25,312 nucleotides of DNA from positions 1-25,312 of the IMG/VR virus record IMGVR_UViG_3300036985_008283, one strand, 5' to 3'. Position numbers and translations under genes: made by a program. Within the stretch, counting starts at the first letter, position 1. Every line of letters starts with the position of its first letter. Source of the stretch: a virus. This document shows positions 2,370 through 25,312 of the stretch, piece by piece. The notes under the pieces are model-generated. The model made no database searches and was not told where the DNA came from. It saw only the letters and a list, made by a program, of their open reading frames with translations.

Positions 2370-2840
2370 ATGGCAAATGGTACAACATATGGTTTAGCGT
2401 TTCCTTTCAATGATTCAATTAAAGGTGATTATTTAGAGTTAACTGAATTTGAGAAAGAGCAAATTAAATCAGACCTATTACATTTATTATTAACAAGAAA
2501 AGGCTCAAGATATTATTTACCTACGTTTGGTACAAGATTATACGAGTTTATTTTTGAACCTTTTGATGGATTGACATTTGATGCAATACAATCGGATATT
2601 AGAGACGCGGTTCAAAACTTTATGCCGAATTTATTGTTAAATGAAATTACAATAACACCGGCAGACCCAGCAGAAGAAATTGACATTGCCACAGGACAAA
2701 ATTTTGTAGGAACAAGTGAATCTTCAATCTACAGACTTCCTGGAAAAGGAACAGCAGAATACACTGCAAAAATAAAAATAGATTATTCAACAAACGGTCA
2801 AACGTTTTCACAAAGTGATTTTCTAATTATCAATATTTAA
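2370..2840 (+). CDS. Baseplate wedge protein, T4 gp25-like (GPW/gp25 family)
   Basis: A 156-residue protein of the gp25/GPW family, which forms part of the baseplate wedge core of contractile tails and helps nucleate the sheath. The diagnostic core is in the first 90 residues: an N-terminal segment ending in DLLHLLLTRKGSRYYLP (35-51), then the conserved FGTRLYEFIFEPFD (53-66) and a following helix. The family is usually about 110-140 residues; the extra length is a loop around residues 95-125. The start ATGGCA has no Shine-Dalgarno sequence. The gp6-like gene follows after five bases, the same gene order as in many contractile phages, which supports the assignment. Confidence 0.85.
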   Translation: MANGTTYGLAFPFNDSIKGDYLELTEFEKEQIKSDLLHLLLTRKGSRYYLPTFGTRLYEFIFEPFDGLTFDAIQSDIRDAVQNFMPNLLLNEITITPADPAEEIDIATGQNFVGTSESSIYRLPGKGTAEYTAKIKIDYSTNGQTFSQSDFLIINI

Positions 2841-2845
2841 CATAG

Positions 2846-4684
2846 ATGGCTAATCGTAAAATACCATATACAACCAGAGATTTCCAAGCGATAAGAGTAG
2901 AACTACAAAACTATGTTAGAACTTATTATCCGGAATTAATACAGGATTTTAATGATGCATCCGTATTCTCAGTGTTCTTGGATTTGAATGCCGCAGTTGC
3001 CGATAACTTACATTATCATATTGATAGAAGTATTCAAGAAACCGTTCTTCAATACGCACAACAAAAGTCTTCGGTTTATAACATTGCCAGAACTTACGGT
3101 TTAAAATTACCAGGACAAAGACCATCAGTATCGTTAGTTGATTTTTCAATTACAGTTCCAGCTTTTGGTGATAAAGAAGATGAAAGATATCTTGGTACTT
3201 TATTAAGAGGTTCTCAAGTAGTAGGTGCGGGATTAGTTTTTGAAAACATTTATGATGTAAATTTTGCGTCACCATACAACGCTCAAGGATTCCCTAATAG
3301 ATTAAAAGTTCCAAACTTTAATGCTAATGGTGTTTTATTAAACTATACCATAACTAAAAGAGAACTTGTAGTTAATGGTATTACAAAGGTATTCAAGAGA
3401 GTTATTACACCAAATGATGTTAAGCCATTCTTTGAACTATTCTTACCTGAAAAAAATGTATTGGGTATTACAAGTGTTTTACTTAAAGATGGTACAGAAT
3501 ATTCAAACATACCAACAACAGCCGAATTCATGGGATTATCAAACAGATGGTATGAAGTAGATGCATTGGCTGAAGATAGAGTATTCATTGAAGACCCAAC
3601 GAAAGTTTCAGACCAACCAGGTATTAAAGTTGGAAGATATATTCAAACTCAAGACAGATTCATCAGTGAGTATACAGGTGAAGGATTCAAGAAGATGACA
3701 TTTGGTGGAGGAACAAATACTGCACAAGATGCTTTAGACGAATTTACAACTTTTGGAGGAACTTTGGAATTACAAAAATATTCAAACAACTTTTCTTTAG
3801 GTTCAGCATTGAAAGCTAACTCAACATTGTTTGTTCAGTATAGAGTTGGTGGTGGATTACAAAGTAACTTAGGTACAAACGTAATCAATCAAATTGGTAC
3901 AGTATCGTTCTTTGTTAACGGACCTTCAGAGGCGACAAACTCATCAGTGGTTAACTCTTTAAGATGTAACAACGTAACTGCCGCTATCGGTGGAGCGGGA
4001 TTACCAACAATAGAAGAAATTAGAAACTACGTATCGTTTAACTTCTCGGCACAAAAAAGAGCGGTTACAGTTCAAGACTACGATTCAATTATCAGAAACA
4101 TGCCAGCCCAATTCGGAGCTCCTGCAAAAGTTGCAATTACCGAAAACGACAACAAAATTTTAATTCAAATATTATCATATGATACTTCAGGTAAACTGAC
4201 TAATATTGTGTCTAATACTTTGAAACAAAATATTGCCAATTACTTATCTAACTACAGAATGATGAACGATTACATTTCAATCTTCACAGCTGAAGTTATT
4301 GATGTAAGTGTGGATATCTCAATCGTATTAGATTCTGCACAAAATTCAGGTCAAATTATTTCACAGGTTATTGATTTAATATCAACATATTTTAATCCAC
4401 AAGCAAGACAACTTGGGCAAAACGTTTATTTATCTGAGATAAGAAGCATTGTTCAAAATACAAATGGAGTCTTAACTGTTGCAGGACTTGAAATCTACAA
4501 CGAAGTGGGTGGTCAATACTCATCAGCAGAAACGTCAATGACATACTCTGACCCTGAAACAAAATTAATCGGACCTGTTGATGATACAATATTTGCACAA
4601 CCATCACAAGTATACCAAATTAGATATCCAAACAAAGATATTAGAGTATCTGTGAAGAACTTCCAATCAGTTACATTCTCATAA
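2846..4684 (+). CDS. Baseplate wedge protein, T4 gp6-like / baseplate J family
   Basis: A 612-residue protein close in length to T4 gp6 (660). The N-terminus (PYTTRDFQAIRVELQNYV, residues 6-23, then FNDASVFSVFLDLNAAVADN) is the typical start of phage gp6-like proteins. The baseplate J hallmark KRAVTVQDYDSIIRNMP is at 404-420, and near residues 515-535 the segment LGQNVYLSEIRSIVQNTNGV fits the family's C-terminal part. In the virion gp6 dimers form the inner ring of the baseplate wedge and contact gp25 and gp7. The gene follows the gp25-like gene after five bases and is followed by an 85-base gap holding a hairpin and a TATTTAT motif, so it probably ends a two-gene unit. Confidence 0.85.
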   Translation: MANRKIPYTTRDFQAIRVELQNYVRTYYPELIQDFNDASVFSVFLDLNAAVADNLHYHIDRSIQETVLQYAQQKSSVYNIARTYGLKLPGQRPSVSLVDFSITVPAFGDKEDERYLGTLLRGSQVVGAGLVFENIYDVNFASPYNAQGFPNRLKVPNFNANGVLLNYTITKRELVVNGITKVFKRVITPNDVKPFFELFLPEKNVLGITSVLLKDGTEYSNIPTTAEFMGLSNRWYEVDALAEDRVFIEDPTKVSDQPGIKVGRYIQTQDRFISEYTGEGFKKMTFGGGTNTAQDALDEFTTFGGTLELQKYSNNFSLGSALKANSTLFVQYRVGGGLQSNLGTNVINQIGTVSFFVNGPSEATNSSVVNSLRCNNVTAAIGGAGLPTIEEIRNYVSFNFSAQKRAVTVQDYDSIIRNMPAQFGAPAKVAITENDNKILIQILSYDTSGKLTNIVSNTLKQNIANYLSNYRMMNDYISIFTAEVIDVSVDISIVLDSAQNSGQIISQVIDLISTYFNPQARQLGQNVYLSEIRSIVQNTNGVLTVAGLEIYNEVGGQYSSAETSMTYSDPETKLIGPVDDTIFAQPSQVYQIRYPNKDIRVSVKNFQSVTFS

Positions 4685-13052: not shown

Positions 13053-13961
13053 ATGGCAATAGGTTCATACGGTACAATAAGACCAAGTGATGTCTCACCT
13101 CAAGATGTTGACATTATCATGGCTTACACACCAACAAGAGATGTGACCGATAACTTTACACTTACTTCATTAAATGCTCAAAGCATTTTAAAACCTTATT
13201 TCAACAACTCTGAAACAGGAGGAAATGCGGGTGTTGAAGTTTTAGGTGGATTGTACAATCTAACATTACCTGCAGAACAATTTAATGCCCTTGGAATTTA
13301 TACTTTATATTTAAGACCAGCACAAATTAGAACAGTGATTACTGATTGTGGTGTTTTAAGTGCTTTACCTAATGTAAAAGGAATTGTTATCGATTTAACA
13401 AATGTTCCTGTTCAATACCAAAACAAATTTGTCTCACAAGGACTTGTTGGATTCAGAGTTGAATATCTAAATCCAGATGGTTCAAAAATACCAAACTTCT
13501 TTAGAGTTATCACTTCAAGTTTCTTCTGCGAACCAGTGGTTACAAACGAAGTTAACACAACTCAAAAATCTGTAAGATACAGATATGTTGATGGAAGTGC
13601 TAATTTACTATTCTGTACTTTATCACCGTCATCATCTCCAACAAATAAACCGAATGCGACACCATTCATTGGTCAGCCAAATCAAAGTATTATTATCTCA
13701 AATACTTTCTTCAATCCGATTTCTATAGAAATTGAAATGGTTGAGTACGATATTTCATCTCTTGCGATTGCTCTTTACGGTAATCAAACTAAATCTATTG
13801 ATGATGGTATCTACACAATCTATGATGCTCAAAATAATATCTATAGACAATATAACTTATACGAAATTAGAGACCAATTTAACGCATTGTTATATGAGGT
13901 TAGACAAAGTAGAGGTACTAATATTGATTTCAGTAAGAACTTTACAAACATAACCGCATAA
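13053..13961 (+). CDS. Putative virion structural protein
   Basis: A 302-residue protein with no family name I can support. The N-terminus (MAIGSYGTIRPSDVSPQDVD) reads like a short conserved docking segment; the middle is beta-rich, with a Ser/Pro/Asn loop near residues 190-210 and two cysteines near 115 and 155. The C-terminal 60 residues look helical (YNLYEIRDQFNALLYEVRQS). It opens the second block of overlapping genes, and its stop codon shares one base with the start of the 1000-residue baseplate-type gene, suggesting that the two products work together in the tail. The start is ATGGCA without a Shine-Dalgarno sequence. Confidence 0.75.
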   Translation: MAIGSYGTIRPSDVSPQDVDIIMAYTPTRDVTDNFTLTSLNAQSILKPYFNNSETGGNAGVEVLGGLYNLTLPAEQFNALGIYTLYLRPAQIRTVITDCGVLSALPNVKGIVIDLTNVPVQYQNKFVSQGLVGFRVEYLNPDGSKIPNFFRVITSSFFCEPVVTNEVNTTQKSVRYRYVDGSANLLFCTLSPSSSPTNKPNATPFIGQPNQSIIISNTFFNPISIEIEMVEYDISSLAIALYGNQTKSIDDGIYTIYDAQNNIYRQYNLYEIRDQFNALLYEVRQSRGTNIDFSKNFTNITA

Positions 13962-16900
13962 TGGCAACATCGATAAAGAGTACCAAATATTTTTATCCGC
14001 CAAGACCGGGTAGTGGGGCGTCAACCTTTTCAGACAACATTGTAGGTTTACAAACTGTTGAGGGTGGCGGACTTACGCAAGGTAACTTTGAGTTCACAAC
14101 AGGAGTAACTGAGAAGGTTAATAGAACGTTTAATGTAGGTGCTTTTTCTGAACCAATGACTCTCGATGCAATGAATATCGAGGATTTGGCGGAGAGTCGT
14201 AGAATTCAGGCGACACAATTTAGAGTTTATCCAAACTACGATGTTTCTCAAGTTTTAAACTTTTCAATGTATGGTTCACTATCTAAAAGATTTAGTGTTT
14301 CTGTACTTCATATTATAAATTATTTTCCAGCGTCAGTTGATGTGTTGTTTAACAACTTATCATTTGCAACGGGAGCAACAGCATATGATATATCATATGA
14401 TTCGGTTTTAGACGAGACATTTTTTAGAGTAAATGTTGATAGATTTAATAATCCATTTGATGTTGATTATTCACTTAGTGCCTCAACCAATTTAAGTGTA
14501 AGGGAGATTTTGGTTTCTCCATACAGAAATTTATACAACACCTATTTGGATTATTGTATTGCTTTTACAAATGACCAAGGAGAAAATAATATATTCAAAA
14601 TCGTTGGATTTACACCTTCACCAACTCTTACAAGCGGATATCTTGAATTTTATGTTCAAGGAGCACCATTTGGTAGTGTTGTAACTCAATCCAATATCAA
14701 TTATAATATTAGACCTAATGACCTTATAGTTGATAAAATATTTTCTGAAACTTTTGATGAAGTTGAAAAGTTTTTAGTGAACAGATTAGTAAGACCTGAA
14801 TACACTGCGGTATTCCAAGTACCACAACAAAATGAAGCGGGTCAGTATTATACTAATAACGAACAAGTTACTTGGCCGAAAGATGGTAATTGGAACTTAG
14901 ATATTAGGTCATTTAGTTTTGATGATTATTTAACACAATTACAAGAAATTGCTGTTAATCTGGATTCATTCAAAACAAATTTAATTTCAAGATTTTTGGT
15001 GAGTGACTCACTTAAAGAATTTGATACTCTTGGTAGAAAGGTTGAAAAGGTTTTACAGATATATGGTAGAAGTTTTGACCAAGTAAAACAATTTATTGAC
15101 GGGTTAGCTTATATGAACTCAGTAAATTACACCCCTGAAAACGACATACCATCTCAACTATTGGTTAACTTAGCCCAAACATTAGGATGGACATCTAATT
15201 TCTCACCAATTACTGAAGGAGATTTTTTAGAGTCTATATTCGGAAATACCAATACACCAACCTATCCAGGTTATGCCAGAGCTCTTACACCAACAGAGAT
15301 TAACTACGCATTTTATAGAAATCTTATCTTGAATTCGGCTTACTTGTTCAAGTCAAAAGGAACAAGAAGGTCGGTTGAATTTATTTTAAGATTAATTGGT
15401 GCACCCGATTCTTTGATTGAGTACAATGAACACATTTACTTAGCTGACCAAAGAATTAACATGGACCAGTTCTATACACAATACGCTCAAATATCAGGAG
15501 GAACTTATGTGAACACTTCACCAAGTTATATCCCTGGTGACACATATAAAGTAAAAGGAAAAACGTTCACCGCATTCACATCAAGTTCAGTTTATGAAGA
15601 TACAACTATCAGATTAGTTGATTACCCTGTAGATGAGTTGGGATATCCAAGAGCACCTTTGAATACAGAATCTTATTTCTTTCAAATTGGTGCGGGTTGG
15701 TATGAAACAACACCACAACATCGAAGTCCTGATAATGTTGTTATTACCGGTAATGTTTTTACAGGTCAGAACTACGATATACAAACCCAATTACAACCGT
15801 TCACTTATGGTCAAACATATTTGAACAGATATAGAGATTTCCCTTATATGACCGAAGGGTTTAAGTTGAGAAAGATTGTTGATAATAATAAGTCATGGTT
15901 ACAAGATGATGATAAAATTAGAATATCAACACAAGGTGATTACAACGCCTATTATTTTGTTGATAATGAAAAACTTGTTTTAAACGTTAAAAACGTGGAT
16001 ATCTTTATGAATCCTGGACAAGGTCTAACTTACGCAATTTGGGACACATCGAGAGAATATAATTATCCAATACCTGAAACAGGACTTGAAATTGGTTATC
16101 CTGTACCTGGTGGTGTGGATTGGACTTTTGTAGACCCTCAGCCCAAGAAAAAAACATTCTTTGAATTCTCACAAACTTTTTGGGAGAATATGATTAATGT
16201 TAGAAACAGACAATACATTACTGATGGTAAAACAGGTGGATACCCTACATTACAATCACTTTGGTGGAAATACATTGAATCGGAAGAAACGGTTGGAGTT
16301 CCCACTAACAAATACACTTATCAAAAGTTAATTAATTATGTTGAAGGTATTGGTCCTTACTGGTTGAAGCTAATGGAGCAAATGATTCCGGCAACAACAA
16401 TTTGGAATGGTGGTATTAGATACGAAAACTCAATTCTTCAAAAACAAAAGTTTGTTTATAGAAGACAAAGAGGTTGTCAATTTGTACCAGTTCCCGCTGA
16501 ACCGTGTTACATCATTGGAAACATATTCCAATACAATTGTGCAACTGAATACGTTGACTTCTATATTTATCCATGGTTAAATGGAGATACAAACGTGTCA
16601 AACTTTAGTGCTATATTAAATAATAGAGTAACCGCCTTATTAGTTCAAAATAACTTATCACCAACCCAATGTATTGCCGATTCAATTGCAACAGATTGGT
16701 ATGTTAATTTAATGATTGGACCTGATACAATAATAAACGCCTTATTCTACACAGGATATGGAAGTACTGATGTTCCTACTAATAGACAATGGAGAAACGC
16801 ATTAATTGCTAATCTACCATTGTTATATGATTATGGATTTACTTATTTCCTAAACGGGAATAATTTAAGAATATCAAGTTTGACTTGTGAACCAAGAAAT

Positions 16901-16963
16901 TTAGACGAAATAGTTAAATTAAATGTGGGGATAATGATAGATATAAATTGTAATACAAATTAA
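13961..16963 (+). CDS. Large baseplate/tail protein with tail-protein-I-like motif
   Basis: A 1000-residue protein. Its N-terminus (KYFYPPRPGSGA, 9-20) is followed by a beta-rich region. The centre is helical and carries KSKGTRRSVEFILRLIGAP (464-482), which resembles the KGT...LG segment of P2 gpI-like tail proteins that link wedge and fibres. Around residues 770-850 another well-formed stretch (WLKLMEQMIPATTIWNGG, then RRQRGCQFVPVPAEPC) looks like a conserved structural core. Length is close to T4 gp7 (about 1030), and the gene lies downstream of gp25 and gp6 homologues, but I see no clear gp7 sequence match. Both neighbours overlap by one base (TAATG). A role joining the baseplate wedge to fibre-type proteins is the best inference, since SprB-type and fibre genes follow directly. 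Confidence 0.7.
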   Translation: MATSIKSTKYFYPPRPGSGASTFSDNIVGLQTVEGGGLTQGNFEFTTGVTEKVNRTFNVGAFSEPMTLDAMNIEDLAESRRIQATQFRVYPNYDVSQVLNFSMYGSLSKRFSVSVLHIINYFPASVDVLFNNLSFATGATAYDISYDSVLDETFFRVNVDRFNNPFDVDYSLSASTNLSVREILVSPYRNLYNTYLDYCIAFTNDQGENNIFKIVGFTPSPTLTSGYLEFYVQGAPFGSVVTQSNINYNIRPNDLIVDKIFSETFDEVEKFLVNRLVRPEYTAVFQVPQQNEAGQYYTNNEQVTWPKDGNWNLDIRSFSFDDYLTQLQEIAVNLDSFKTNLISRFLVSDSLKEFDTLGRKVEKVLQIYGRSFDQVKQFIDGLAYMNSVNYTPENDIPSQLLVNLAQTLGWTSNFSPITEGDFLESIFGNTNTPTYPGYARALTPTEINYAFYRNLILNSAYLFKSKGTRRSVEFILRLIGAPDSLIEYNEHIYLADQRINMDQFYTQYAQISGGTYVNTSPSYIPGDTYKVKGKTFTAFTSSSVYEDTTIRLVDYPVDELGYPRAPLNTESYFFQIGAGWYETTPQHRSPDNVVITGNVFTGQNYDIQTQLQPFTYGQTYLNRYRDFPYMTEGFKLRKIVDNNKSWLQDDDKIRISTQGDYNAYYFVDNEKLVLNVKNVDIFMNPGQGLTYAIWDTSREYNYPIPETGLEIGYPVPGGVDWTFVDPQPKKKTFFEFSQTFWENMINVRNRQYITDGKTGGYPTLQSLWWKYIESEETVGVPTNKYTYQKLINYVEGIGPYWLKLMEQMIPATTIWNGGIRYENSILQKQKFVYRRQRGCQFVPVPAEPCYIIGNIFQYNCATEYVDFYIYPWLNGDTNVSNFSAILNNRVTALLVQNNLSPTQCIADSIATDWYVNLMIGPDTIINALFYTGYGSTDVPTNRQWRNALIANLPLLYDYGFTYFLNGNNLRISSLTCEPRNLDEIVKLNVGIMIDINCNTN

Positions 16964-19095
16964 TGGCAGCATTTAGTTACATACTACAGATAACAGGGGA
17001 TTGTCAATCAACAGGCTCAGGCGCAATTAATTTGATACCTACAGGAGGTACTGCACCATATACCGTAGAATGGACACAACCTTCTTTGGGGGAAGACCAA
17101 GCCGTTTTATCATCCACAAGAAGCGGATTATATCCAAACACATATGTTGTTAGAGTTAATGATTCTACCTTACCAACAAACCAAGAATTTTATATTAATA
17201 TACCTGTTTCTGATGGGATTTGTGGTAGTGTTGTTGGAGTTAGTAACACTACTTGCGAACTTAATAACGGTTCTGTAACAGGAACCTCAACATCGGATTA
17301 CTCTTCAACAAACTATTACCTATACAATAATGTAAGTAGTTTTATCTCATCTGCAGTAACAAATATTTCTTATGTTGAATTTGCCAATTTATCTGCAGGA
17401 ACTTACTATATGATTGCTCAAGATTTGGGTGGTTGTACTGGTAGAAGTGAAAGTTTTATTATTGAAAGTTCTCCACCGTTTAATTTTGGGTTATATCCTG
17501 TACCAAACTCAAGTTGTGGAGGAACACCTATAGGTAAAGTATTGGTTACAGGGATGACAGGAGTTGCTCCTTACACTTATCTTTGGAGTAATGGAACAAC
17601 AGGTAGCACAATCACAGGATTGACTGAAGGGACTTATTCTGTCCAAATAACCGATTCTAAAAATTGTCAAGTTACACAAACGGCGACAGTAACAAAAGTA
17701 GACCCAATCGGTTTCGGTTCATTTAGTGCAACAACACCAAGTTGTTTACAACAAAATGGTAGTATTACTCTTACAATTACAGGAGGAACCGCACCATATT
17801 ATTATTCAGCCTCAACAGGAGATGTTTTAATATCATATTCTCAAGAATATACTATTAGTAACTTGACTGCTGGTCAATATAACTTCTTAGTAACAGATGC
17901 GGGATTTTGTACACTAAACGCAGGAACAACTTTAGAAACACCACAAGGTATTTCAAGTGTTTCTGTTAATGGAGTAAATTCAACATGTTCAAGTACGGAC
18001 GGTTCAATACAAATTACTGTTATAGGTGGTACATTACCATATACTTATACATTAGTTTTACCTGACGGAAGCACAAGCGCCATTACAAACTCTCAAACAA
18101 GTATAATTTATCCAAGTTTATCGACAGGAACTTATACAGTTGCGGTTGCTGACTCATCAGGATGTTATTACATGCAAGAAGTAACAATCATTACTGAAAA
18201 TAAATTCACAATCTCAACTAATGTTGTTGGTACCTCTTGTAATCAACTTAACGGACAAATAACAGTCACAAGAACAACAGGTGGAACAGAACCATTTGAC
18301 TTTGCGTTAGATGGGGTAACAAGTTTTATTGATACGAATTTAACTGCGGTAACATTTTCGAATGTTGCTTCAGGACAACACCTTATTACTGTAACAGATG
18401 CAACAGGGTGTACTCAAACAGCGACAGTTTTCGTTACACCAAGTCAACAACTTGATTACTCACTTTATAGTACGTCATGTGGAGGGGGTTCAGAAGGAAC
18501 AATAACCGCATTTATAACTTCAGGAACACCACCATTTACATATCAGTGGTCAAATAATGTTACAAGCAATCCACAACAAATACAAGTGTCAGGACTGACT
18601 GCGGGAACGTATAGTGTTGTAATAACAGACGCATCAGGATGTACACTCAGAAGGTCAACAACAATTAGTTGTGCAACATCTTATGTATCTTATGAAAGTT
18701 ATGTTATGGGAGCTGAACTTTTACAAGTACAATCACCAACAAAGTACGGATTACTACAAATGATGAATGAAGGTTTTGCTGACCTCACATCAGGTAATAC
18801 AAATTGTGATTTAGTAACAGCGACATTCTATGCTCAAGTATTAGTTAATCCGTTAGGAACTTCAGTAAGCCAACCATTCTTTACCGCAACAACATTAAAT
18901 GTTGGACCAAGTGATAACTTATGGTATGACACAATCAGAACAATATTGTTAAGTATTAATGGTGTAAGTGGGGTTACTATTGACCAACTTAATAACCAAA
19001 TAACAATACAAACGAGTACAAGTAATTTCTCGTTAAACGGACAAGAAATCATTATCAAATTGAATATTGTCTACGATATAATGTGTTTAACATGA
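16963..19095 (+). CDS. Repeat-rich virion or adhesin-like protein with SprB-type repeats
   Basis: A 710-residue protein made of about seven related units of roughly 80 residues (about residues 1-572), then a distinct 138-residue C-terminal domain. Each unit follows the SprB-repeat pattern: a Cys plus NGS-like turn, GGT-x-PYTY, LTAGTYSV, TD-x-x-GC. The best copies are APYTYLWSNGTTGSTITGL (near 200) and PPFTYQWSNN with LTAGTYSVVITDASGCT (near 530-560). SprB repeats are known from the large cell-surface adhesin used in flavobacterial gliding. There is no N-terminal signal peptide and no type IX secretion domain, so it is not a host adhesin; its place between baseplate and fibre genes suggests a virion part. 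It overlaps its neighbours by one base (TAATG) and four bases (ATGA). Host-surface binding is inferred, not shown. Confidence 0.8.
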   Translation: MAAFSYILQITGDCQSTGSGAINLIPTGGTAPYTVEWTQPSLGEDQAVLSSTRSGLYPNTYVVRVNDSTLPTNQEFYINIPVSDGICGSVVGVSNTTCELNNGSVTGTSTSDYSSTNYYLYNNVSSFISSAVTNISYVEFANLSAGTYYMIAQDLGGCTGRSESFIIESSPPFNFGLYPVPNSSCGGTPIGKVLVTGMTGVAPYTYLWSNGTTGSTITGLTEGTYSVQITDSKNCQVTQTATVTKVDPIGFGSFSATTPSCLQQNGSITLTITGGTAPYYYSASTGDVLISYSQEYTISNLTAGQYNFLVTDAGFCTLNAGTTLETPQGISSVSVNGVNSTCSSTDGSIQITVIGGTLPYTYTLVLPDGSTSAITNSQTSIIYPSLSTGTYTVAVADSSGCYYMQEVTIITENKFTISTNVVGTSCNQLNGQITVTRTTGGTEPFDFALDGVTSFIDTNLTAVTFSNVASGQHLITVTDATGCTQTATVFVTPSQQLDYSLYSTSCGGGSEGTITAFITSGTPPFTYQWSNNVTSNPQQIQVSGLTAGTYSVVITDASGCTLRRSTTISCATSYVSYESYVMGAELLQVQSPTKYGLLQMMNEGFADLTSGNTNCDLVTATFYAQVLVNPLGTSVSQPFFTATTLNVGPSDNLWYDTIRTILLSINGVSGVTIDQLNNQITIQTSTSNFSLNGQEIIIKLNIVYDIMCLT

Positions 19096-19472
19096 CGCAG
19101 GTAAGAATAACAGACATATCAGGAAGTACAGCGTATCCGTTTAGCGTTTACATATCGGATATTTACGGTAATTATCAAACTTTGATAGGGACAATAAGTT
19201 CTGCAGTTCCACCTACAGTTTACTATAATACAGTAATTCCCTCAATTTTTAATACCGCACCTCAAATAATGTTGACGTTGGTTGATGCCAATAATTGTTC
19301 AATATTTAAAATTTTAGATTGTACGTTTGGTTGTACATTTCAGATTACAATTGAGATGGCGAGTTGTATTGTTGATATTAATATTCAAGAATCGTCTTGT
19401 ACTTTTGGGGTTAGTTTGGCAGACCCAAGTTGTTTTATTAATAGTATAAATTTATCGGACCCAAGTTGTTAA
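19092..19472 (+). CDS. Small protein with an 11-residue cysteine periodicity
   Basis: A 126-residue protein, no family recognised. The first 76 residues are beta-rich (PFSVYISDIYGNYQTLIG). The C-terminus has cysteines at 69, 77, 81, 92, 103, 114 and 126, the last five spaced 11, 11, 11 and 12 residues apart, in units such as CTFGVSLADPS. This regular spacing suggests a small repeating beta coil or a disulphide or metal-tied tip. ATG 19092 overlaps the previous stop as ATGA and is preferred over GTG 19083. The N-terminal half shares the PFSV-(Y/F) pattern, and a Cys after the module, with the N-terminal domain of the next gene, so the two may use a common docking module. It closes the overlapping block and may cap the SprB-repeat protein or another fibre. 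Confidence 0.7.
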   Translation: MTQVRITDISGSTAYPFSVYISDIYGNYQTLIGTISSAVPPTVYYNTVIPSIFNTAPQIMLTLVDANNCSIFKILDCTFGCTFQITIEMASCIVDINIQESSCTFGVSLADPSCFINSINLSDPSC

Positions 19473-19538: not shown

Positions 19539-21779
19539 ATGGCCACTTATACTATTCTAGTCGTAAATAATGCACCTGGTTGTAATGATATTTCAGTATC
19601 ACAACAAGAAACTGCAACAACTTGTACAACTTACATTGTAAGATTGGCATCAAATTCAAATGCTTTAGGACCATTCAGTGTTTTTGTTGACTCAACTTTA
19701 ATTGGTTCAGGATATACAAGGACCGACATGTTTAACGGAGTAGTTGTTTATTTAGGTTGTGCAACACCGACCCCTACACCAACTCTTACGCCAACTTCTG
19801 CCGCTGTAACACCAACTAATACTCCAAGTAGTACAGAAACTCCAACACAAACTCCTACCAATACTCAAACACCAACTAATACAGCAAGTAATACGCCAAC
19901 ACAAACTTTAACACCAACAACTACAACAACATTAACTGCAACGCCAACTAATACACCAACAGAAACTCCAACAAACACACCTAGCGTAACTCCAACGAAT
20001 ACTCCAACAAATACTATAACTCAAACAGAAACTCCAACAAATACTCCAAGTGAGACTCCAACTAATACACCAACAAATACTATAACTCAAACAGAAACTC
20101 CAACAAATACTCCAAGCGAGACTGCAACTAATACACCAACACCAAGTACTACCGCAACAGCAGGATTGACACCAACTGCAACTGAGACACAAACGCCAAC
20201 ACCATCTATCACTGCGTCTCAAACTGAGACACAAACACCAACACCAACAAATACTCCAACAGAAACACCAAGTAATACTCCAACTGAAACAATAACACAA
20301 ACTCCAACAGAAACACCAAGTAATACTCCAACTGAGACAATAACACAAACTCCTACAAACACTCCAACTCAAACAGAAACACCAAGTAATACACCAACTG
20401 AGACAATAACACAAACTCCTACAAACACTCCAACTCAAACAGAAACACCAACTAATACTCCAACAAATACTGAAACTCCAACAAACACACCTAGCGAAAC
20501 GCCAACTAATACACCTAGCGAAACGCCAACTAATACTCCAACAGAAACAAACACACCAACTCCAAGTGCGACTGCGGGTCAAACTCCAACAGCAACTGAA
20601 ACACAAACTCCAACACCTTCTATTACTGCGTCTCAAACTGAAACTCCAACAGAAACACCAACAAACACACCTAGTGAAACTCCAACTAATACACCAACAG
20701 AAACTCAAACTCAAACACCAACAACTACAACAACATTAACTGCAACGCCAACAAATACGGAAACACCAACAGAAACGCCAACACAAACTCCAACAACTAC
20801 AACAACATTAACTGCAACGCCAACAAACACACCAAGTGAAACTCCAACTGAAACGCCAACAAACACACCAAGTGAAACTCCTACAAATACTCCAACACAA
20901 ACAGAAACTCCTACACAAACTCCAACACCTTCTATCACTGCGTCTCAAACCGAAACTCCAACAGAAACTCCAACAAATACACCAAGTGATACTCCAACAC
21001 AGACACCAACAGAAACTCCAACTCAAACACCAACAGTAACGACAAGTGATACTCCAACACAGACACCTACTGAAACTGCAACACAAACTCCAACAGTAAC
21101 AACAACTGATACGCCAACACAAACACCAACAGTGACGGCAACACAAACTGCAACATTAACACAAACACCTACACCTACACCTACAAGGTCTCCATTGTTT
21201 GCTTACATATTCATTGATACAAATGGTGCTCAGGCTAAAATTAATTTAAATGCTTGGATGACATCACAAGGAAGTACTTGGAAAGGATTTAACCAAGTTC
21301 CTACCGCTCCATCAACAGTTCAAGCGACATTTGATGCTCAAATGAATGCTTATTTAAGTTACTCAGGATGGACAGGAAATTTGGGTAATGGAGATGAGCC
21401 ATCAATAATAACTGCACCAATTTCAACAACATCAGGAGGAAATGACGCTTACGGTAATCCAATTGTTGCATATACATTCCAAACAGTACAAATCCCTATT
21501 GGAGCGTTTACTGCAGTATCTTCAAACTGGGTTACAGTATTTGTATCAACAGGAGCAACAAACGGACAAAAATACTCAACAGCTAAAAACGGAACAAGTG
21601 CTGGTGGAATGGCAACAAGAACTATGAATAGTACATACAATAGTTTAATAATAAATTATTCTGGAAGTACAAATATACCAGCAGGTACGTACAGAATGTA
21701 TTCAACATATAATGCAACGTCATTCCAATTAGGAACAAGTTCATTACCGAACTATTTCCAAGGAGGGACATTAGTTTAA
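19539..21779 (+). CDS. Fibre-like protein with a long Thr/Pro mucin-like stalk
   Basis: A 746-residue protein in three parts. Residues 1-74 form a small beta-type domain ending in Cys74 (VVYLGC). Residues 76-549 are an almost uninterrupted run of Thr and Pro with Asn, Glu, Gln and Ser, built on a TPT-x units ([14 protein letters not shown]). Islands such as [12 protein letters not shown] (three copies) and [11 protein letters not shown] (three copies) punctuate it. Residues 550-746 are a compact, non-repetitive domain ([15 protein letters not shown]... to YFQGGTLV) that is probably the functional tip. No signal peptide is visible. Such Thr/Pro runs form stiff extended stalks and are often O-glycosylated elsewhere; the D-(S/T)-(A/I/L/V/M/T) motif known in Bacteroidota is not evident in the stalk. 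Position among tail genes suggests a tail fibre or decoration holding the tip away from the particle. It starts ATGGCC after a 66-base gap. Confidence 0.8.
19764..21185 (+). repeat. Thr/Pro-coding low-complexity repeat
   Basis: About 1.4 kb of imperfect tandem repeats encoding TPT-x units, with a base period of 6 and 12 and larger duplicated blocks. Examples are a block beginning CAACAAATACTATAACTC at 20005 and 20071 (66-base offset), and one beginning AGAAACACCAAGTAAT at 20261, 20309 and 20375 (48- and 66-base offsets). All offsets are multiples of three, so the frame is kept. Synonymous differences between copies show it is not a simple recent expansion of one unit. Confidence 0.9.
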
Positions 21780-21816: not shown

Positions 21817-24800
21817 ATGAGTTTTAATTATAAAAATCCCACCTCAGATACATTTGTAACATCTCCATTCTCGGTTGACAGAGAATCGGATTCTGGAGTA
21901 AATTTTAGTGTAAATACCGTAGGAGGTTATATGGAGGTTTGGAGTCTTGCTGACTTGAATTGGACAATTCCTCCAGGTACAGACGGGCCAGTGAATTATT
22001 CAGGTAATACAATACCAATTAGTTTTGTGTATGCAGGAATAACAAATCAATTAAATCTTTTCAATGATGGAATCTCTTCGGGAAGGAGAAGATTAGGAAT
22101 GTTGGTATTTGTTCAAGAAAATCAAACAACATACCAATATACAATTCCTAATTATGAAAGTTTATGGACTTTAGCGAATGAAGATGGTGATGTTACTGAA
22201 TTAGAGTTTGGTTACCAAGTGTTAAACTTGGAAGCTGGTGGTCAGGCTCTTATGAACGCTTGGACAGGCTCTACTATTGAAGGTGTTAGTGGTGTTACAA
22301 GAGAAAATGCTAGATGGAGAGTTGCCAATTTAAATGATACTGCAATTACAGGTGGTACATATTTTTCTGCAACAACAACATTAGATTTATATGATACTGA
22401 TGGAGGAGTTGTAACAATCACAGGATTTACAGGAACTGTAACTGGTGGAACATATGATAGTGGAACTTCAACTTTAACTTTAAATAATAGTGATGGTACT
22501 GCGGTATCAATTACAGGTATAACTTCAGGTTCAGGCTCAGCCTTATCTGTTGGAGACGGAACAACAACAGTTACTTCTGTTTCAGGAATTACATTCAGTG
22601 GAGCATCAGTTATAGATGATGGTGGTGGAAACATTACTGTAACAATAACTGGAGGAACTTCAGGAACAAGTGGTTCATCTGGTTCTTCAGGAACTTCAGG
22701 TACAGATGGTACTTCGGGTTCATCAGGAACTAGCGGTACAGATGGTACTTCGGGTTCATCAGGAACTAGCGGAACAGATGGTTCTTCAGGAACTTCAGGT
22801 AGCTCAGGTACAGATGGTTCTTCAGGAACTTCAGGTTCAGATGGCTCTTCAGGAACAAGTGGTACGGATGGTAGCTCAGGAACTAGCGGAACAGATGGTT
22901 CATCAGGAACTAGCGGAACAGATGGTAGTTCAGGAACTAGCGGAACAGATGGTAGCTCAGGAACAAGTGGTACCGACGGAAGCTCAGGAACTAGCGGAAC
23001 AGACGGAACTAGTGGTACGGATGGTTCATCAGGAACAAGCGGTACAGACGGTTCTTCAGGAACAAGTGGTACAGATGGTAGTTCAGGAACTAGCGGAACA
23101 GATGGTAGCTCAGGAACAAGTGGTACCGACGGAAGCTCAGGAACTAGCGGAACAGACGGAACTAGTGGTACGGATGGTTCTTCAGGAACAAGCGGTACAG
23201 ACGGTTCTTCAGGGACAAGTGGAACTTCAGGTGTTAGTGGTATTGATGGTACTTCGGGTACAAATGGTTCTTCAGGAACTAGCGGCACGAATGGTTCTTC
23301 TGGTACGAGTGGAACAGATGGTTCATCAGGAACTTCGGGTTCTTCAGGAACAAGCGGAACAGATGGTACTTCAGGTTCATCTGGAACAAGCGGAACAGAT
23401 GGTAGTTCAGGAACTAGCGGTACAGATGGTTCTTCAGGAACTAGCGGTACAGATGGTTCTTCAGGAACTAGCGGAACGGATGGTAGCTCAGGAACAAGTG
23501 GAACTTCAGGTACAGATGGTTCATCAGGAACTAGCGGAATAGATGGTAGCTCAGGAACAAGTGGTACTTCAGGTACAGACGGTTCTTCAGGAACAAGTGG
23601 TACAGATGGTTCTTCAGGAACAAGTGGAACAGATGGTTCTTCAGGAACAAGCGGAACAGATGGTAGCTCAGGAACAAGTGGTATAAATGGTAGTTCAGGA
23701 ACAAGTGGTACCGACGGAAGCTCAGGAACTAGCGGAACAGACGGAACTAGTGGTACGGATGGTTCATCAGGAACAAGTGGTACAGATGGTTCTTCAGGAA
23801 CAAGTGGTACAGATGGTTCTTCAGGAACTTCAGGAACTTCAGGAACTTCAGGAACTTCAGGTACAGATGGTAGTTCAGGAACTAGCGGAACTGATGGTTC
23901 AAGTGGAACAAGTGGTACCGATGGTAGTTCAGGAACTAGCGGAACAGACGGTTCTTCAGGAACAAGTGGTACAGATGGTTCTTCAGGAACTTCAGGTACA
24001 GATGGTAGTTCAGGAACTAGCGGAACTGATGGTTCAAGTGGAACAAGTGGTACCGATGGTAGTTCAGGAACTAGCGGAACAGACGGAACTAGTGGTACGG
24101 ATGGTTCATCAGGAACAAGTGGTACAGATGGTAGTTCAGGAACTAGCGGAACTGATGGTTCAAGTGGAACAAGTGGTACCGATGGTAGTTCAGGAACTAG
24201 CGGAACAGACGGAACTAGTGGTACAGATGGTTCTTCAGGAACTTCAGGTACAGATGGTAGTTCAGGAACTTCAGGTACAGATGGTAGTTCAGGAACTAGC
24301 GGTACAGATGGTTCTTCAGGAACTTCAGGTACAGATGGTAGTTCAGGAACTAGCGGAACTGATGGTTCAAGTGGAACAAGTGGTACCGATGGTAGTTCAG
24401 GAACTTCTGGTTCATCAGGAACTTCAGGTACAGACGGTTCTTCAGGAACAAGTGGTACAGATGGTTCATCAGGAACTTCGGGTTCTTCAGGAACAAGCGG
24501 AACAGATGGTACTTCAGGTTCATCAGGAACTAGCGGAACAGATGGTTCTTCAGGAACTAGCGGTACAGATGGTTCTTCAGGAACTAGCGGTACAGATGGT
24601 AGTTCAGGAACTTCGGGTTCTTCAGGAACAAGCGGTACAGACGGTTCTTCAGGAACAAGTGGTACAGATGGTTCATCAGGAACTTCGGGTTCTTCAGGAA
24701 CAAGTGGTAGCTCAGGTTCTTCAGGAACATCGGCTTTAATTTGTACACCATTCTTAGCTGGAGATTATTATTTTCAAGCAGTAGCACAACTTTACAATGG

Positions 24801-25312
24801 ACCTTCGTCTCCAAATATGTCATGGGGTCCTGGACAAACATTAAGTGTATATGCACCTGATGATGTTATACAATATATGTTAATTAGCGGTTACACTGCT
24901 TCAACAGGAGCTTTAATTGCGGTTATTACATATTCTCAAAATCCTGGTTATAAAACACAGGCAGGAGTTACTCTTTGTCTTGTAGGAGCACAAGGTTCAA
25001 ATGGTTCTTCAGGAACAAGTGGAAGCTCAGGTTCTTCAGGAACTTCAGGTTCAAACGGAACAGATGGTTCATCAGGAACTAGCGGTTCTTCAGGAACAGA
25101 CGGTTCTTCAGGAACAAGTGGTACAGATGGTTCATCAGGAACTTCGGGTTCTTCAGGAACAGATGGTACTTCAGGTTCATCAGGAACTAGCGGTACAGAT
25201 GGTACTTCAGGTTCTTCAGGAACAAGTGGTACAGATGGTTCATCAGGAACTTCGGGTTCTTCAGGAACAAGCGGAACGGACGGTAGCTCAGGTTCATCAG
25301 GAACTAGCGGTA
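21817..25312 (+). CDS. Giant Gly-X-Y (collagen-like) fibre protein, 3' partial
   Basis: The frame is open from ATG 21817 to the right edge: 1165 residues and no stop. Residues 1-279 are a folded N-terminal region; near 205-237 it contains a beta repeat (VTGGTYDSGTSTLTLNN) of a type I associate with phage fibres. Residues 280-972 are 231 consecutive Gly-X-Y triplets with no break in phase: X is mostly Thr or Ser, Y is Ser, Asp or Asn. Residues 973-1056 are an 84-residue non-repetitive insert with Cys976 and Cys1054 at its two ends. Gly-X-Y resumes at 1057 and runs past the edge. There is no Pro, Lys or Arg in the first triplet run, unlike typical collagens, so a polyglycine-II-like bundle is an alternative to a triple helix. 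Context and architecture suggest a long trimeric tail fibre with a mid-shaft knob; the distal tip would lie outside the window. Confidence 0.85.
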   Translation, partial: MSFNYKNPTSDTFVTSPFSVDRESDSGVNFSVNTVGGYMEVWSLADLNWTIPPGTDGPVNYSGNTIPISFVYAGITNQLNLFNDGISSGRRRLGMLVFVQENQTTYQYTIPNYESLWTLANEDGDVTELEFGYQVLNLEAGGQALMNAWTGSTIEGVSGVTRENARWRVANLNDTAITGGTYFSATTTLDLYDTDGGVVTITGFTGTVTGGTYDSGTSTLTLNNSDGTAVSITGITSGSGSALSVGDGTTTVTSVSGITFSGASVIDDGGGNITVTITGGTSGTSGSSGSSGTSGTDGTSGSSGTSGTDGTSGSSGTSGTDGSSGTSGSSGTDGSSGTSGSDGSSGTSGTDGSSGTSGTDGSSGTSGTDGSSGTSGTDGSSGTSGTDGSSGTSGTDGTSGTDGSSGTSGTDGSSGTSGTDGSSGTSGTDGSSGTSGTDGSSGTSGTDGTSGTDGSSGTSGTDGSSGTSGTSGVSGIDGTSGTNGSSGTSGTNGSSGTSGTDGSSGTSGSSGTSGTDGTSGSSGTSGTDGSSGTSGTDGSSGTSGTDGSSGTSGTDGSSGTSGTSGTDGSSGTSGIDGSSGTSGTSGTDGSSGTSGTDGSSGTSGTDGSSGTSGTDGSSGTSGINGSSGTSGTDGSSGTSGTDGTSGTDGSSGTSGTDGSSGTSGTDGSSGTSGTSGTSGTSGTDGSSGTSGTDGSSGTSGTDGSSGTSGTDGSSGTSGTDGSSGTSGTDGSSGTSGTDGSSGTSGTDGSSGTSGTDGTSGTDGSSGTSGTDGSSGTSGTDGSSGTSGTDGSSGTSGTDGTSGTDGSSGTSGTDGSSGTSGTDGSSGTSGTDGSSGTSGTDGSSGTSGTDGSSGTSGTDGSSGTSGSSGTSGTDGSSGTSGTDGSSGTSGSSGTSGTDGTSGSSGTSGTDGSSGTSGTDGSSGTSGTDGSSGTSGSSGTSGTDGSSGTSGTDGSSGTSGSSGTSGSSGSSGTSALICTPFLAGDYYFQAVAQLYNGPSSPNMSWGPGQTLSVYAPDDVIQYMLISGYTASTGALIAVITYSQNPGYKTQAGVTLCLVGAQGSNGSSGTSGSSGSSGTSGSNGTDGSSGTSGSSGTDGSSGTSGTDGSSGTSGSSGTDGTSGSSGTSGTDGTSGSSGTSGTDGSSGTSGSSGTSGTDGSSGSSGTSG
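22654..24732 (+). repeat. First Gly-X-Y coding repeat (231 triplets)
   Basis: A 2079-base array with a 9-base period encoding GTS, GTD and GSS triplets, with rare GVS, GID, GIN, GTN and GSD. Higher-order copies are visible: 22921-23073 is repeated in tandem at 23074-23226 with few changes, and part recurs from about 23709. A second block type beginning CTGATGGTTCAAGTGGAAC starts at 23891, 24026, 24152 and 24359. All offsets are multiples of nine, so both frame and triplet phase are kept. Confidence 0.92.
24985..25312 (+). repeat. Second Gly-X-Y coding repeat, running off the right edge
   Basis: After the 84-residue insert the 9-base repeat resumes with GAQ GSN GSS and then the same GTS, GTD and GSS units as the first array. 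It is open at the window end, so its full length is unknown. Confidence 0.9.

Follow-up and report, generated by a model that had tools for sequence, protein, structure and literature searches.

A seven-unit SprB-repeat protein encoded in the baseplate and tail-fibre region of a probable T4-like phage of Bacteroidota

The window analysed here is a stretch of 25,312 nucleotides, positions 1 to 25,312 of the IMG/VR virus record IMGVR_UViG_3300036985_008283. Near its start, two genes of the plus strand code for baseplate wedge proteins, one gp25-like (2370..2840; phrog_261 3.2e-17, phrog_43 1.1e-11) and one gp6-like (2846..4684; phrog_219 3.4e-24, phrog_6 2.2e-23). The named relatives of the gp6-like protein are found only in Flavobacterium phage immuto, in phage Mel-JY01 and in one uncultured phage. 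Further along the same strand lie p302 (13053..13961), a protein of 302 residues that is the most conserved neighbour across relatives, and p1000 (13961..16963), a protein of 1000 residues. Next comes the gene under study, which begins with an ATG at 16963, ends at 19095 and codes for a SprB-repeat protein of 710 residues. Downstream on the same strand, the small protein p129 (19092..19472, with an ATG start at 19092 or a GTG start at 19083) carries a divergent single SprB-like unit (hhalign E 7e-6 against the units), and distant orthologues of it are picked up by the unit profile with values between 5.7e-5 and 2.5e-3. It is followed by a P/T-repeat protein that is hypervariable between relatives (19539..21779, plus strand; ORF and comparison) and by a collagen-like tail fibre assigned through PHROG tail fibre families, whose gene is open at the window end (21817..25311, plus strand).

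The SprB-repeat gene overlaps p1000 by 1 base (TAATG) and p129 by 4 bases (ATGA, 19092-19095), or by 13 bases with the GTG start at 19083. These overlapping start and stop codons suggest that the protein is made by coupled translation with its neighbours. In the initial annotation, which was made from the sequence alone, the gene was said to be overlapped on both sides by phage structural genes. The overlaps are indeed present, while neither direct neighbour has a structural function named in databases; they are called structural because of the gp25- and gp6-like genes upstream, the collagen-like fibre downstream and a weak match of the p1000 core to Mel-JY01.

The Pfam family SprB (PF13573) matched six stretches of the 710-residue protein with an E-value of 3.9e-28 and 97.2 bits, the curated cut-off being 28 bits. 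A six-frame search with the same model found four places above this cut-off and a fifth below it. The other Pfam models recorded on the protein were BiPBP_C (3e-6) and the generic PKD (0.043), and neither Ig_3 nor I-set was among the Pfam matches listed for it. The profile search that had been proposed as a check of the SprB assignment was thus decided in favour of SprB and against a generic Ig-like fold, and a specifically SprB-type nature of the repeats is supported by their sequence. A profile built from the family itself resolved seven non-overlapping units of about 80 residues, each significant alone (69-86 bits), which turns the estimate of about seven into exactly seven. All are on the plus strand. 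U1 (aa 4-85, 16972..17217), U2 (aa 86-171, 17218..17475) and U6 (aa 414-495, 18202..18447) were detected by the unit profile, and U3 (aa 172-248, 17476..17706), U4 (aa 249-328, 17707..17946) and U5 (aa 329-413, 17947..18201) by both Pfam and the unit profile, as was U7 (aa 496-571, 18448..18675), which holds the best Pfam SprB stretch.

An AlphaFold2 (AF2) model computed with 32 orthologues as input displayed all-beta units with a mean pLDDT of 81; the pTM of the whole protein was low (0.35), which makes it uncertain how the domains are arranged relative to one another. Both Foldseek and VIA-align matched the array to Ig/FnIII chains, in agreement with a chain of Ig-like beta-sandwiches. The best solved structures in Foldseek were those of GhpA from Aureispira (9flp, 9fly and others; 9.7e-20). 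The second aligner, VIA-align, gave GhpA a Z-score of 9.6, tied with many unrelated FnIII/Ig chains, so that structure supports an Ig-like fold and it is the sequence that assigns the repeats to SprB. The GhpA grappling hook is likewise a chain of Ig-like domains, but it is a bacterial protein of the cell surface, much larger and only 15-19% identical.

Ig-like domains on virions are well known, for example in gut phages (PMC13370021). When the family profile was compared with solved structures, the best sequence match was the phage neck whisker gp24 (9occ, 8e-4) and the next a phage decoration protein; 5lxk and 8zvi were the decoration proteins hit. A match at 3.6e-21 was also obtained with PHROG 2973, the Hoc-like head decoration family, its best stretch falling within the repeats (197-313). 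A comparable architecture exists in Citrobacter phage KKP_3664, where a protein annotated as hypothetical (L064:6432-8993, plus strand) is a fibritin (Fibritin_C 5.7e-20) with a C-terminal chain of Ig repeats that also score as SprB (2.5e-13); its gene lies between gp12 and gp13, in a T4-like virion gene cluster. These matches argue for a fibritin- or Hoc-like fibre at the neck or on the capsid, which would act as an assembly jig or as a weak carbohydrate binder. T4 Hoc, gp24 and 5lxk, all virion proteins, do resemble the window protein in having Ig-like domains and in a weak profile similarity, but they represent another repeat family with fewer domains and are located on the capsid or at the neck. 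The KKP_3664 repeats score better as Ig_3 and are joined to Fibritin_C in a phage of a Citrobacter host, whereas Pfam found no Fibritin_C in the 710-residue protein. Moreover, the window gene is located inside a baseplate/tail-fibre cluster, and the protein that has the same C-terminal domain is p1000 of that cluster and no protein of the head or neck. A neck whisker or head decoration fibre is consequently held to be rather unlikely.

This C-terminal domain (CT; aa 597-710, 18751..19092, plus strand) is a proposed virion anchor. The initial annotation made no mention of a non-repeat domain after U7 (about residues 597-710). CT comprises about 115 residues and is predicted by AF2 as an alpha/beta domain with the element order H-E-E-H-E-E-E (pLDDT about 80). 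A second copy forms the C-terminus of p1000 (about 16544-16960, plus strand). The HMMs of the two copies matched each other reciprocally (1.6e-6 and 9.8e-7, locus L051) and hhalign aligned them at 6e-6. In AF2 the p1000 copy has the same helix and strand order at a pLDDT of about 80, plus a short extra helix that precedes the final strand; outside this domain the model of p1000 is poor. The presence of one terminal domain in two adjacent genes suggests that CT mediates assembly. Searches of CT against the PDB by sequence profile returned nothing. For p1000 there was no firm match in PHROGs, Pfam, the PDB profile search or AF2 plus Foldseek, and nothing in eight genomes of the genus Arcicella. 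The core of p1000 (256-485) weakly matches a 1336-residue protein that Microcystis phage Mel-JY01 encodes in its baseplate cluster, a counterpart that has no PHROG match either. In the baseplate regions of immuto, Mel-JY01 and LR756508, with filters off for the profile searches of Mel-JY01 and immuto, this core was the only query found, again weakly; the SprB units, CT, p302, p359, p263 and p565 were unmatched. Gene order and this weak match point to a baseplate role for p1000.

Orthologues of the SprB-repeat protein were found in 58 IMG/VR loci, at 33-95% identity and in the same gene order, the succession p302 - p1000 - SprB protein being constant in relatives. The unit profile found seven units in each of the full-length orthologues that were tested, the most distant of them being 33% identical. 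A scan of IMG/VR for the CT domain yielded 342 matching stretches. The 80 best of these, loci additional to the first set and partly more distant, all showed p1000 and the SprB protein, and all but three also p302. Automatic counting assigned seven units to 76 of the 80, eight to three and five to one. The counts of eight reflect one unit called as two pieces, as seen in L181, and the count of five a gene broken into 2+5 (L196). In the unit tree, U1 to U7 cluster by position across phages, with 6 label changes among seven labels, which is the minimum, and with starred support for U1, U2 and U4. This grouping places the seven-unit array in the ancestor of the phage clade. In the unit phylogeny against host SprB, which had been recommended at the outset, monophyly of the phage units was not rejected (AU p 0.63, about 80 columns), and the phage units may come from one or from several bacterial units. 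In the loci L147-L173, the SprB gene is often followed by another protein, one that carries two SprB-like units (e.g. a 464-residue ORF in L160), besides the single-unit p129 homologues.

The SprB gliding adhesin is encoded on the bacterial chromosome, usually with a gene for an SprF-like shuttle downstream. Matches to the phage protein at E <= 1e-8 were obtained in 44 of 198 Bacteroidota genomes (BLAST best 1e-40), with alignments of about 25-45% identity, and PF13573 matched none of 14 well-known control genomes. SprB and the SprB-repeat/CHU_C proteins of Bacteroidota share with the window protein the Pfam family and the GGT-PYTY / LTAGTYSV / TD-GC signature. The bacterial stretches examined hold 3 to 18 units, a variable number in contrast to the fixed seven of the phages. 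Of the bacterial matches for which the stretch reaches the C-terminus of the protein, about ten finish with a T9SS domain of the 'FTPNGDG'-like kind. The type IX secretion domain CHU_C was detected in a positive control (L083, 1.2e-17). Pfam found no CHU_C in the 710-residue protein; Por_Secre_tail remained below the cut-off (E 0.15) and was located inside unit 7, and no signal-peptide-like stretch was visible by eye at the N-terminus (MAAFSYILQITGDC), all in accordance with the early remark that the gene lacks secretion signals. SprB of Flavobacterium johnsoniae is a protein of 6497 residues (PMC9870892). Its type B C-terminal domain (CTD) is both required for the delivery of proteins to the gliding machinery and enough to bring it about (PMC12618676). 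In the window protein this domain is absent and the phage CT stands in its place, and the gene belongs to a virus record and to a phage structural cluster with phage genes as neighbours. Judged from the sequence, membership in SprB holds at the level of the repeat and fails at the level of the adhesin.

It had been proposed that the phage engages the gliding machinery or captured the repeats from its host. An entry through SprB's own route does not agree with the lack of a type B CTD. A recent capture of a host adhesin fragment, docking on or interfering with the gliding machinery, would accord with the best cellular SprB-repeat matches being in Bacteroidota, among the sequences searched, and with the tie between resistance to Flavobacterium phages and loss of gliding (PMC7345892). 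The array is nevertheless fixed at seven units across the clade with units grouped by position, the bacterial alignments are distant, phage-unit monophyly is not rejected, and there is no visible signal peptide and no type B CTD, which makes recent capture highly improbable. Of a similarly low probability is a non-virion protein of the 'moron' type, displayed on or secreted by the infected cell. An example of what such a protein may look like is encoded by LR756502, a 642-kb uncultured phage with a 13-unit SprB protein (L065:10804-15828, plus strand) that has a signal-peptide-like start (by eye) and CHU_C; this phage seems to carry a host-style secreted adhesin. The window protein, on the contrary, has no recognisable signal peptide or T9SS domain, overlaps its neighbours and is conserved clade-wide inside the structural cluster. 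Most likely, then, the protein is a fibre that projects from the virion, and not a gliding adhesin taken from a host.

Sequence exchange within the gene was observed between close relatives. The DNA of L007 is 85-94% identical to that of L002/L004 across p1000. At the SprB start codon the identity drops to 63-72%, a level kept up to about residue 370, near the U5/U6 boundary; between unit 6 and the gene end it is again about 89-94%. Units 1-5 are thus cleanly replaced as a block (L007:7983-10142), one breakpoint coinciding with the start codon and the other lying close to the U5/U6 boundary. This pattern fits an arm that is exposed and can be exchanged while its anchor is conserved. Purifying selection on the SprB gene is indicated by its dN/dS of 0.08-0.13 between close relatives; the value is 0.28 in the pair with L007, and 0.06-0.08 for p1000. 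Several relatives possess P/T linkers and extra tip-like domains after CT, and others long N-terminal extensions. The extension reaches about 1000 residues, P/T linkers included, in L154:1081-7485 and L164:1198-6957, and the L141 protein has about 225 extra residues. A beta-propeller was considered for the tail of the L033 protein and rejected, Pfam having found no such domain.

The lineage was approached through a 165-kb relative, G001 (IMGVR_UViG_3300032239_001501), whose gene products include a T4-type portal (7e-75) and terminase and sheath proteins, the sheath being of the contractile kind. The named phages nearest to its core proteins and to the gp6-like protein of the window are Flavobacterium phage immuto and Mel-JY01. 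The same relative encodes an outer-membrane beta-barrel receptor of 1020 residues with CarboxypepD_reg and OMP_b-brl_4 (L072:791-3853, plus strand), 57% identical to a gene of an Arcicella MAG; a phage-carried receptor of host type could alter superinfection or nutrient uptake. The immuto- and Mel-JY01-like core proteins and the Arcicella-like receptor make a Bacteroidota host likely for the window, partly by way of a relative, and the clade probably consists of uncultured T4-like phages infecting Bacteroidota. When 17 kb of the window were searched for host DNA matches (CRISPR spacers or prophages) in 395 Bacteroidota genomes, matches were short or at chance level only, and the best of them (7.5e-7) falls within the SprB units.

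A tail- or baseplate-associated phage protein is the best fit. In the preferred reading, to which a probability of roughly 60% is given, the protein is a conserved structural component of the tail/baseplate-fibre region in a T4-like lineage. Its seven Ig-like domains of SprB type would form a stiff, stacked rod about 25 nm long, as estimated from domain size. CT would attach this rod to the virion, probably as the pairing partner of the CT copy in p1000. The rod would project outwards and either contact the host surface or its polysaccharides or position the variable fibres encoded just downstream. As the initial annotation suggested, the phage protein may bind the same polysaccharides as SprB. 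A more elaborate proposal is a baseplate strut of fixed length made of host-type repeats, whose exchangeable N-terminal units bind the surface or slime polysaccharides that SprB binds and let virions hitch on surfaces or on gliding cells; it is regarded as a distinctly long shot.

An anchored, outward-pointing rod would give a new setting to SprB repeats, known as building blocks of motility adhesins and not as virion parts. It would be a concrete candidate for how Bacteroidota phages bind or reach through surface polysaccharides, and bears on why gliding and sensitivity to phages go together in flavobacteria, an association long noted and unexplained. The invariant seven-unit array, combined with a domain common to a baseplate-cluster protein, also provides a marker gene for a large uncultured phage clade. 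One member already bears the name in databases: A0A6J5LD72, 'SprB repeat' of an uncultured Caudovirales phage (UniProt/BFVD; 714 residues, 32% identity over the full length, Foldseek E 1.9e-61), is an orthologue, and as far as could be found this is a database label only. In the literature searched there was no paper on phage SprB repeats, the only one that combines 'SprB repeat' and 'phage' being concerned with polymorphic toxins.

Two smaller observations concern named phages. The stated cyanobacterial host of Mel-JY01 (L108, PP395634) may deserve a check, its core genes being among the nearest to the phages described here, alongside immuto. A ribonucleotide reductase encoded at 297-2159 of the window is 69% identical to a gene of Mel-JY01 and 62% to one of Vibrio phage VPs20, and the 'recombinase' annotation of the VPs20 homologue is probably wrong.
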